From positions 1 to 58,394 of the forward strand of contig JAIXMF010000043.1 of assembly GCA_025201365.1 (NCBI GenBank): 58,394 nucleotides of DNA, given 5' to 3'. A program made the position numbers and the translations under genes. This document shows positions 30,827 through 46,868 of this stretch, piece by piece (the stretch's first letter is position 1; every line of letters begins with the position of its first letter). Source of the DNA: Syncephalis plumigaleata. Its lineage: Eukaryota > Zoopagomycota > Zoopagomycetes > Zoopagales > Piptocephalidaceae. The notes under the pieces were generated by a model. That model was not told the DNA's origin. It made no database searches and worked only from the letters and a program-made list of their open reading frames with translations.

Positions 30827-31943
30827 ATGCTTACTGACGAACAGCGATCGACCTTTCATCGTCAAGGCTATCTTGTCTTAGAGTCAGGTATTTAGCTGTC
30901 TATTTATGTATATATCGATATGATTATTCGTAATAACAGCAACTAGTTTTAAACACAGAGCAATTACGGGCATTGCAAAATGATTGCGAGGAATGGCTGG
31001 AACAACTTGACAGCGTAGATATATTAAAGAATACTGGTTGCGTCATCGGTAATACTAGTAATACTAGATTGAGTCTATAGCTCGTTTAGTGCTAACAAAT
31101 TGTAGAGCCAATGCTAAACAGCGATATTGAATTAACTACGCCTTCTTGTCGATGGGATCATACGGGTTATCGGGAGGCACGCTGGAGTAGTAGACCTGCA
31201 GCAGGACAAGTACTACTGGAGCTACTACCGAGTATTGTTGCCGATGTATTGCCATCGCCAAATGATATACGCTTGGTGAGATAGTGCTTCATTTGTTAAT
31301 TTACTACACGTAGTTAATATCTTAATAGTATAATGAGCAGTATATTGTTAAACCACCTCAAACACCTTTTGGTTCAACATTTGTTTGGCATCAGGTAAGC
31401 TAATAATATCATCTAGCATGCTTATTAATTGGTGCATTAGGACAACGAGTATTTACACACGGCGGCACGTTCTATTCCTACTGTTGCATGCTGGATCCCA
31501 TTGGATAGTGTTAGCCAAGTAAGTAGCTCTTATGGAATAGGCGATAGCAGCGGTATTTATCCTGTAATAAAAAGGCCAATGGAACTGTAGAAATCGAACC
31601 ATACATTGATGTAGCAAGTGATGGAGACAGATCTACGATAGTTTTATCATGTTTACAACAAGTGGATCAGTATGTGCAATGGCATGACGTGCAATCTAGC
31701 CAATATCCAGTACGTAGTCCATATCTCATCGAGCCATGTGTCGAATATCCGGTTGTGACCATTGTTATGGAACCTGGTTCCGTGCTGCTCATGTCAGATC
31801 GTGTACGCCATCGTAGTCGAGGCAATGCCAGTCGTCGAACGCGACGTGTTTATATGGTGCAATACTCGAGTGGTATCGTGCTAACCGAGGATCCTACTGC
31901 AAATATGCCACTGGCACTGGCTGTACCAGTCGAGCACGGATGA
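30827..31943 (+). CDS. Phytanoyl-CoA dioxygenase-like (PhyH) protein
   Basis: Six exons (30827-30887, 30947-31048, 31106-31275, 31341-31394, 31441-31518, 31575-31943) join in frame to 277 residues. The start has FHRQGYLVLES, typical of PhyH. The iron-binding HxD is HQD (128-130), split by an intron. TVACWIPLD and a later RHRSRGNASRR with the second His complete the 2-oxoglutarate/Fe(II) site. PhyH enzymes hydroxylate varied small molecules, so the substrate is not predictable. All introns are short and GT-AG. The last part of exon 6 (from 31720) lies inside the inverted repeat; a broken copy is at 46645-46868. Confidence 0.85.
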
Positions 31944-32123
31944 GTCATAATAACTACGAATGGTACAGTAAGACGGAAATAAAAATAAATAAATTGGAAA
32001 ATAACAAATGCTGCTCGTTGTGTGAGTGCGCGCGTTTTTCGTTCCTTCTCATTGTTGCGTGTTATTTTCGCGCCTTTCTCTTTTCCTCGTTCACTCATCC
32101 GCACTTGTTTTGTCTCGTTTCAT

Positions 32124-32129
32124 ACGCGT
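32124..32129 (+). promoter_or_regulatory. ACGCGT, possible MBF (MCB) site before RAD51
   Basis: The palindrome ACGCGT lies 9 bp before the RAD51 ATG and is kept in the second copy (46459-46464). In yeasts MBF reads ACGCGT ahead of DNA-synthesis and repair genes. The hexamer occurs elsewhere in the window by chance, so support is weak. Confidence 0.3.
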
Positions 32130-32138
32130 ATCTTCGTC

Positions 32139-44409: not shown

Positions 44410-44943
44410 AGTCGTATTATAGTGAATGACGAGGAAACAAAAGGAGGAAAAGGGCTACAATTGCTGTATGTAACAAAAAGAAGCGAGAATGACGTTGATC
44501 CTTGAGGGAATTTCGGTTAAATGTTGGCAGGCAATTTAACCATGTAACACTAATTAAATAAAGGATGTGCTTGCTAATAAACTCGCATTTAATCATGCCA
44601 ATTACATGTAGAATGATATGATAATTGCAATAAACAGCTATTTGTATCAAATCAACATTACGACGTCTAATTAGCTGAACGTCTACTCGTCTCATGTAAT
44701 AGTAATAATAACATGCTTGCTACATAATGAATAGATGAATATGTGTGTATTGCTTATTAATGAATAAACTATTTGTTATCCATGCAAGTATGCTAGATTG
44801 GATGGTTCCATTGTAGTTTATTAATATGACATGTATCAGCTGTTTAATAGTCTTGTATCTCATCATTCAGCATTACTCGATGACGATGACGATGACGATG
44901 ATGATGCTAACAATGATAATACGACAATGACAATGGTGCTACA
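44410..44943. other. Junction between PER1 and the right repeat arm
   Basis: The PER1 promoter (AGGAGGAAAAGG and other A/G-rich sequence before 44594) meets the inverted repeat at 44594. The rest is the duplicated RAD51 3' flank with the mirrored GATGACGAT-rich run. Confidence 0.6.
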
Positions 44944-46449
44944 CTAGTCTTTAGGATCGCCAATACCATCGGCATTGATGGAGAATACCGCTTCAGCCTC
45001 GGGCAGGCATGGCGAATCGTATATCTTACAAATACGTGTCTCACCACGTCCTTTACGTAGATACAGTCTAGCGAGATGTAGCATGGCTTAGTGATTGTCT
45101 AATGGCAATAGTGAACGCGTGCTTACCGTGTTGTTGAACTATGTGCAACAATGTTACCACCAATGGGTTTCTTGGGATCTGATGCAAACAATGCTGATGC
45201 TCCGTCCACTTGCGCCACCACTTGATTCGTGATGACTACCGCCACACCAAACTAGACGGTGTAGATTAGCGACACTGCTCGTCATTCCATCTACATACTC
45301 ACCTCATCTGCCAATCGAAGTAGTAGGCGTAGGAACTTGGCCAGATGCATTTGACGTGCCGATAATTCACCACGACCTGAATAGTCTGTTCGGTAGAGTG
45401 ACGTGGCACTATCGATGATCAACAATGCAAATCTATCGTGTGCCGTTGTGTCATGTTAGTATTGTTTGTCACTACTATGATTATCACTACTACTAGTGCG
45501 TATGTCGTGTACTTGCCTTGACTCGGCCATCATTGCCGATGCTTGAACGAGTAGCTCATTCTGATGGTCAGAGTTGTAGGCACGCGCATAGGCCACGTTA
45601 TCAAGCACCTCCTCGCCATTGAGTCCGTATCGCTCGGCCACCGCCAGTAGACGTTCAGGTCGGAATGTTCCCTCAGTGTCAATGTACAGACACTTGCCTT
45701 CACTGCCTCCCATGTCAACTGGTAGCTGGATGGCACCAGTCGTGTTAGTTGCCATTTGAATACTTGCCACTAGCAAGCAAGCTCATTGCAAGGTTTCCTA
45801 CCTGACACGTCACAGCCAGTGTGTGACAAATCTGACTCTTTCCTGTACGAAACTCGCCGAACAGCTCGGTAATTGAGCCAGTCTCAATGCCGCCTAGCAT
45901 GGATGGGTAAGCTATTGCTGTCAGTGATGAAGTAGTGTCAGCTACTTGCCTCCCAGTAGCTTGTCAAGTTCCTTGGACCCGGTCGAGATGGTGATAAGCT
46001 CGCTTCGACGCTGGTGGAACTCGGTGGCCGTGGTGAATCCCATTGGAACGAGCTTTGCCGCTATTGTTTTGTCGTAGGTTAGTATTAGCGAGTAGCATGC
46101 AGTTACACTTTTTCTCCTGCTCCTGCTCCTTCCCCTTCTTCTCCTCACCTTCCACTAGCAGTTTGTCAGCCTTTGCTTCAGAAATGCCTTTAATAAGCAG
46201 TATGTTCTTCTTGGGAGTGTAGGCAATTGCCTCGACAGTGTAGTAGCCTGCTTCAGTTAGTTTCTTGACGTCTGAAGCACTGATCCCGAATTCCTATTCG
46301 CTTGGGTTAGCCACTCCACTCCTAGTCGCTCGTCAGACACGACACAACACCGTGCTACTTGCCTCTAGCTTGGAGATTGGCACTGGGCCGGCACTCTCCT
46401 CGGCCTCCATGGCCGTCTCCGAGTTCTGTCGTTGAACCTGAGCTGACAT
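44944..46449 (-). CDS. RAD51: RAD51 recombinase, copy B
   Basis: Eight minus-strand exons (46363-46449, 46149-46293, 45950-46060, 45802-45893, 45517-45725, 45303-45432, 45127-45251, 44944-45067) mirror copy A and again give 340 residues. Comparing by eye I found three exonic differences (ACC/ACT, GGC/GGG, AGC/AGT), all silent, so both genes should make the same protein. The same three introns start with GC. Two acceptors differ harmlessly (AATAG and CTAG for AACAG and CCAG). The 5' flank up to the PhyH stop is duplicated, so the copy probably kept its promoter. Silent-only change suggests recent origin, gene conversion or selection. Confidence 0.96.
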
Positions 46450-46644
46450 GACGAAGATACGCGTATGAAACGAGACAAAACAAGTGCGGATGAGTGAACG
46501 AGGAAAGAGAAAGGCGCGAAAATAACACGCAACAATGAGAAGGAACGAAAAAACGCGCGCACTCACACAACGAGCAGCATTTGTTATTTTCCTATTTATT
46601 TATTTTTATTTCCGTCTTACTGTACCATTCGTAGTTATTATGAC

Positions 46645-46868
46645 TCATCTGTGCTCGACTGGTACAGCCAGTGCCAGTGGCATATTTGCAGTAGGATCCT
46701 CGGTTAGCACGATACCACTCGAGTATTGCACCATATAAACACGTCGCGTTCGACGACTGGCATTGCCTCGACTACGATGGCGTACACGATCTGACATGAG
46801 CAGCACGGAACCAGGTTCCATAACAATGGTCACAACCGGATATTCGACACATGGCTCGATGAGATATG
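46645..46868 (-). pseudogene. 3' exon fragment of the PhyH gene
   Basis: The fragment repeats the last ~74 codons of the dioxygenase (from IEPCVEYPVVTIVMEPGS to the stop), with one visible amino acid change at the end (Gly to Arg before the stop). It lacks all upstream exons including the HxD iron site, so it cannot make the enzyme. It was carried along when RAD51 was duplicated. Confidence 0.92.

Follow-up and report, generated by a model that had tools for sequence, protein, structure and literature searches.

Inverted copies of RAD51 in Syncephalis plumigaleata flank a 10.6-kb block assembled in opposite orientations on two contigs

Introduction

Why should a fungal genome hold two complete copies of RAD51 in inverted orientation, and does the DNA that lies between them turn round? 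The question is raised by C322, one of the 383 contigs of the 32.6-Mb assembly of Syncephalis plumigaleata (Zoopagomycota), a species from a genus of parasites of other fungi. The window analysed here is the whole of this contig (58,394 bases), and it carries two inverted arms of 2.27 kb, each with a RAD51 gene, on either side of a block of 10.6 kb. To our knowledge, RAD51 is usually single copy in fungi. An initial annotation of this DNA, made from its letters and open reading frames (ORFs), proposed that the two arms could recombine and flip the block, and that the recombinase genes might themselves form an inversion switch. The window was compared with a second contig of the same assembly, C13 (746 kb; 746,147 bases), of which 90 kb was analysed; the level of evidence throughout is that of assembled contigs, representing two haplotypes of one genome. 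The best explanation, to which we give a probability of roughly 0.8, is an old inverted duplication of RAD51 that has been homogenised by gene conversion and in which occasional crossovers flip the block.

Two RAD51 genes in inverted arms

Comparison of the window with itself by BLASTN aligned the arms in inverted orientation over 2276 columns, 2251 of them identical (98.9%, E = 0), 17 mismatched and 8 gapped, with a spacer of 10,605 bp between them (33989–44593; Table 1). A second self-comparison returned the same arms as three ungapped pieces, reaching 23 bp further outward, to 31697 and 46891. These outer 23 bp beyond the core hold ten differing columns between the window arms and nine between the C13 arms, from which it follows that close similarity of the arms stops there on both contigs. 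Each arm includes about 420 bp 5' of the RAD51 ATG, with the 3' end of a PhyH gene. The edges of the arms coincide on C322 and C13 and, since they are identical on both contigs, there was probably a single duplication. The common edges further suggest that the duplication predates the split of the haplotypes, in which case homogenisation of the arms would have gone on in each haplotype after the split, and more recently on C13. No inverted repeat longer than 200 bp, besides the RAD51 arms, was found within the 90 kb of C13 (BLASTN, E 1e-10).

The arms described by the initial annotation are thus real and their RAD51 genes intact, each being composed of eight exons that encode 340 amino acids. 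The spliced coding sequence is 1023 nt in each window arm, and the left and right copies differ by three synonymous changes only. The NCBIfam equivalog model for RAD51, TIGR02239, gives 607.8 bits, above its cut-off of 478.05, while the DMC1 model, TIGR02238, gives 439.1 bits, below its cut-off of 447.7; the predicted product of the arm gene is RAD51, not DMC1. When the left copy from C13 was used as a query, the nearest solved structures were chains of RAD51 homolog 1.

Three of the seven RAD51 introns begin with GCAAGT and not with GT in all four copies, that is, at window positions 32226, 32639 and 33072, at their right-arm equivalents, and on C13. The hexamer GCAAGT is found 48 times in the window, where 27.8 occurrences are expected, an excess that is partly due to the duplication of the arms. 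Also within the arms, a TCATCG-like simple repeat lies 3' of RAD51 (window position 33686 and the right-arm equivalent), and it is 6 bp longer in the window right arm than in the other three.

Opposite orientations of the block

The window is covered end to end by C13:509051–558038, except for window-only stretches, the larger of which lie at about 3235–7315, 11100–16152 and 28019–28211. The flanks are colinear, 28212–33988 corresponding to C13:527875–533636 and 44594–58394 to C13:544256–558038, and between them 31720–46891 pairs with C13:546519–531350 in reverse. Alignment of the block with reverse-complemented C13 extends over 10,604 columns with 212 mismatches (2.00%), whereas only 4561 of 12,366 columns are identical when C13 is left unreversed. 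The inner junctions are swapped at the inner edges of the arms and the outer junctions are unchanged. DNA searches concur, in that a piece from the left end of the block matches the minus strand of C13 and a piece from the right flank matches the plus strand. The orientation of the block is opposite on the two haplotype contigs, with the breakpoints in the arms, and the polymorphic orientation that had been predicted is therefore found at the level of the assembly, the block being reversed on C13.

The divergence between the two contigs is 2.00% in the block and 0.96%, 1.83% and 1.56% in flanking pieces. Block divergence was considered as a mark of suppressed recombination and, set against the values for the flanks, was not decisive.

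Concerted evolution of the arms

Both arms of C322 and both arms of C13 were placed in a core alignment of 2277 columns, in which a run of gaps was counted as one event. There are 53 variable events, and 30 of these split the haplotypes with both arms of each alike. Private events number 13 for the window right arm, five for the window left arm and one for each of the C13 arms, and a further three events have three states, the window arms differing and the C13 arms agreeing. When only substitutions are counted, 28 of 48 belong to the haplotype class. None of the 53 events in this alignment tracks left or right position and none tracks the side of the block, so that the crossover point cannot be placed by phasing. 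Between the arms of one contig, the core differs by 18 substitutions plus indels in the window and by two substitutions on C13 (in BLAST, with the outer 23 bp taken in, 11 mismatches over 2287 columns). The arms evolve in concert within each haplotype, and this is the homogenisation to be expected of the recombination between arms that the initial annotation envisaged.

The coding sequences take little part in this variation. In the same alignment, six of the 1023 columns of the RAD51 coding sequence are variable, as compared with 42 of 1239 in the non-coding core, and the reading frame is open in all four copies. The sole non-synonymous change among them is T42A, in the left copy of C13.

A proposed history and its rivals

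These observations can be accommodated by a simple history. A segment consisting of the PhyH 3' end, the whole of RAD51 and the 344 bp beyond it would have undergone one inverted duplication before the present haplotypes parted. Afterwards, on each chromosome, the arms would exchange sequence by non-allelic homologous recombination, with gene conversion keeping both RAD51 copies intact and near-identical. At least one crossover between the arms would have flipped the 10.6-kb block, and the strain would now carry one orientation per haplotype. The flip is most likely of little effect on the genes of the block, as the genes at the block ends adjoin the same RAD51 3' flank whichever way the block lies. 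In proposing this we infer the correct assembly of both contigs, the mechanism of conversion and crossing-over, the recurrence of the flip and its near-neutrality. The readings weighed below are not strictly exclusive of one another, and the probabilities behind our wording do not add up to one.

Several points weigh against this history. With two haplotypes to go by, recurrence of the flip is a supposition; polishing of the assembly could inflate the apparent homogenisation; and the block shows no strong sign of a long suppression of recombination, its divergence not being clearly above that of the flanks. Contigs considered alone also leave either orientation open to mis-resolution, and the C13 arms, with just two core substitutions between them, would be the easier pair to mis-resolve. 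These last two points lead directly to the main rival, namely that the duplication is real and the 2.3-kb repeat was mis-resolved in one contig, the block in fact having a single orientation in both haplotypes. The arms are where the order changes, and a mis-resolution would place the change there too. On the other hand, contigs of 0.75 and 1.95 Mb, and the absence of N from the 90 kb analysed on C13, suggest long reads able to span 2.3 kb, and in the assembly the C322 arms still differ from each other by 18 substitutions and a 6-bp indel, four arms being kept separate. We regard a mis-resolved orientation as unlikely, if still the most serious competitor.

An inverted block would have another meaning if C322 and C13 were copies of a segmental duplication in one haploid genome and not alleles. 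Many loci are single in the assembly, four of the six MCM loci found, for example, being without a partner (C1, C46, C329 and C340). Against this, the whole of C322 matches C13 at about 98%, apart from the window-only stretches, and five other one-to-one contig pairs occur elsewhere: two for MCM genes (C374/C223 and C68/C191), one for HOP2 (C324/C24), one for MND1 (C179/C362) and one for a RAD51-like gene (C359/C329). Three of the five were aligned, with identities of 98.0% for MCM C374/C223, 96.4% and, in a second piece, 97.6% for HOP2, and 99.0% for the RAD51-like pair. The identity of C322 and C13 is typical of pairs at 96.4–99.0%, for which reason they look like an ordinary haplotype pair; a retrotransposon of C322 that is matched by a clean empty site on C13 also fits alleles. 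Judging from such pairs, the assembly separates the haplotypes in part. A non-haploid state would not be out of place in this group, three of four Zoopagomycota tested being non-haploid according to Ahrendt et al. (2018; PMC6784888). Taken together, a segmental duplication is an improbable account of the two contigs.

The suggestion that the locus works as a switch, with orientation governing the expression of RAD51 or of the block genes, fares worse. It can call on the presence of both orientations among the contigs and on an arm gene that encodes a recombinase, which would probably mediate the flip. A comparable inverted-repeat region on Saccharomyces chromosome XIV was not seen to flip during some 53,800 mitoses and 950 meioses (PMC9731477), and homogenised arms do not, therefore, imply a fast switch. 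In the present locus the ABC transporter and PER1 genes, which occupy the ends of the block, start inside it, judging by ORFs and Pfam, and in both orientations each of them lies next to a RAD51 3' flank that is nearly the same. Nothing in the ORFs and Pfam matches points to a promoter or reading frame joined or severed by the flip, and PhyH alone was seen to extend across an edge of an arm, this being the outer one, whose place is the same before and after a flip. Since the immediate neighbours of the block-end genes are unchanged by the flip, a regulatory switch is unsupported, and a functional role for the inversion switch suggested by the initial annotation seems very improbable. The arms, at 2.27 kb, are not short sites such as a dedicated invertase would use. 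The only recombinases seen with Pfam among 29 chosen ORFs of the window plus RAD51 were Rad51 and a retrotransposon integrase, no invertase search having been made of the rest of the genome.

Inverted chimeras are known to arise in whole-genome amplification and in fold-back long reads. That such molecules gave rise to a spurious second, inverted RAD51 is scarcely credible, even though single-cell amplification was used for the congener S. pseudoplumigaleata (PMC6784888), for the same edges are found on two contigs that are about 2% apart and the copies on C322 differ by 18 substitutions plus indels.

Known systems, DMC1 and the meaning of a second RAD51

Recurrent inversion between homogenised repeats, as proposed here for the RAD51 arms, has parallels elsewhere. 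The recurrent inversion on the mammalian X chromosome is reportedly that of FLNA–EMD, and its arms are said to carry other genes. The closest likeness is to the flip/flop region of Saccharomyces chromosome XIV, in which inverted repeats, each about 4.2 kb long, enclose 24 kb and for which conversion with occasional crossover is proposed (PMC9731477). Both systems have gene-bearing, near-identical inverted repeats, homogenisation within the genome and both orientations; boundaries that are the same across genomes are also common to the two, and heterozygotes are known in yeast (PMC9731477). The S. plumigaleata locus differs in its shorter arms (2.27 kb), in carrying RAD51 and not sporulation genes, in belonging to a zoopagomycete and in being represented by two haplotypes of one genome. 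The same source, citing Caceres et al., explains the X inversion likewise (PMC9731477): homogenised inverted repeats flank it and recurrence by the same mechanism is proposed, the host being a mammal. In palindrome P6 of the human Y chromosome the arms are homogenised by conversion and rare inversions are reported (PMC3723533), in a male-specific chromosome and with different genes.

The new feature of the S. plumigaleata locus is the identity of the gene in its arms, namely RAD51, within a genome where DMC1 was not detected. Searches made exon by exon with Rad51/DMC1 family models, with prokaryote genomes as controls, found no DMC1-like locus other than the four copies of RAD51 and two weakly scoring paralogue loci, of which one is a contig pair. 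RAD51 exons reach 94.7 bits with the DMC1 model, which is the only yardstick for the sensitivity of these searches to DMC1, and the absence of DMC1 from the genome is provisional. HOP2 and MND1 are present, each as the contig pair given above. For SPO11, PF04406 gave no match in the genome; the domain is a short one that introns may interrupt. No description of a fungal RAD51 inverted pair was found in the literature searched, which covers few subscription papers; in one study there, the S. plumigaleata genome was employed for binning.

Should reads confirm the assembly, this early-diverging fungus would be heterozygous for a repeat-mediated inversion, and the signature of homogenised arms with genes and a flipped block would be like that seen in Saccharomyces and in mammals. 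RAD51 being the gene in the arms, the enzyme encoded by the locus probably mediates the homogenisation and flipping of the locus itself. This raises the question of whether the apparent absence of DMC1 prompted the second RAD51. A fuller scenario, tentative and on balance doubtful, would have RAD51 duplicated to raise its dosage or to serve in meiosis, in a lineage that has HOP2 and MND1 and in which DMC1 was not detected. RAD51-dependent self-exchange would keep the copies identical and, as a side effect, would repeatedly flip the block, with both orientations persisting in the population and suppressing crossing-over locally in heterozygotes.

Genes of the block, arm edges and neighbouring elements

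The limits of the block genes other than PER1 are approximate, having been drawn from ORFs, and domains were assigned by Pfam on the 29 chosen window ORFs plus RAD51 (Table 1). The initial annotation had listed ABCC, Hsp31, MBOAT and PER1 genes between the arms, and Pfam bears out PER1, MBOAT and, at the level of the family, an ABC transporter. PER1 matches PF04080 with 327.5 bits, the MBOAT gene matches PF03062 with 56.7 and 29.9 bits (cut-off 27), and the ABC transporter has an ABC_membrane match of 36.1 bits (cut-off 28), together with ABC_tran pieces of 21.9 and 18.3 bits, under the cut-off of 25. The Hsp31 assignment is weaker, the DJ-1/PfpI match giving 24.7 bits on one exon against a cut-off of 26.6 and ThiJ_like giving 16.2 against 30, with weak support per exon.

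Table 1. Coordinates of the RAD51 arms, the block and its genes in the window
Feature	Position	Strand	Remarks
Left arm	31720–33988	+	complete RAD51, PhyH 3' end, about 344 bp of 3' flank; matches C13:531373–533636(+)
RAD51 copy L	32139–33644	+	8 exons, 340 aa; PF08423 447.4 bits; TIGR02239 607.8 bits
Block	33989–44593		10,605 bp; C13 counterpart 533637–544255, opposite orientation
ABC transporter, several exons	34379–39675	+	limits approximate (ORFs); ABC_membrane and ABC_tran matches
DJ-1/PfpI (Hsp31-like), several exons	39783–40704	-	limits approximate; weak Pfam match
MBOAT acyltransferase, at least 2 exons	41120–43146	+	limits approximate; PF03062
PER1	43309–44454	-	stop-to-stop ORF; PF04080
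Right arm	44594–46868	-	98.9% identical to left arm, inverted; matches C13:544256–546519(-) by position
RAD51 copy R	44944–46449	-	8 exons; same 340-aa protein as copy L
PhyH last ORF	31548–31943	+	stop-to-stop; in arm from 31720 on; PF05721
PhyH 3' fragment, duplicated	46645–46868	-	right arm; PF05721 on ORF 46648–46944; similarity ends at 46868

Both arms start within the last ORF of PhyH, which continues upstream on the left and is represented on the right by its 3' stretch only. PF05721 gives 24.0 bits on the left and 24.5 on the right (cut-off 22). The fragment in the right arm reads in frame into unlike upstream sequence, forming an open frame of 99 amino acids (46645–46944) that is probably a remnant. 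Near the right arm, the large ORF at 47711–49774 has a CAP (cysteine-rich secretory) domain followed by a long, repetitive tail rich in Pro, Ala, Gly and Thr.

Two of the window-only stretches contain mobile or repetitive elements. At 3312–7315, and missing from C13, three copies of about 320 bp, two direct and one inverted, are arranged around two zf-RVT ORFs, and these repeats resemble a nested or rearranged non-LTR (long terminal repeat) element. An LTR retrotransposon of the Ty3/gypsy type lies at 11094–16152, with gag and pol ORFs and a chromodomain; it is likewise missing from C13, which has an intact empty site. Its two 190-bp LTRs are identical, which suggests a recent insertion, and there is an apparent 5-bp target duplication, ATCTC.

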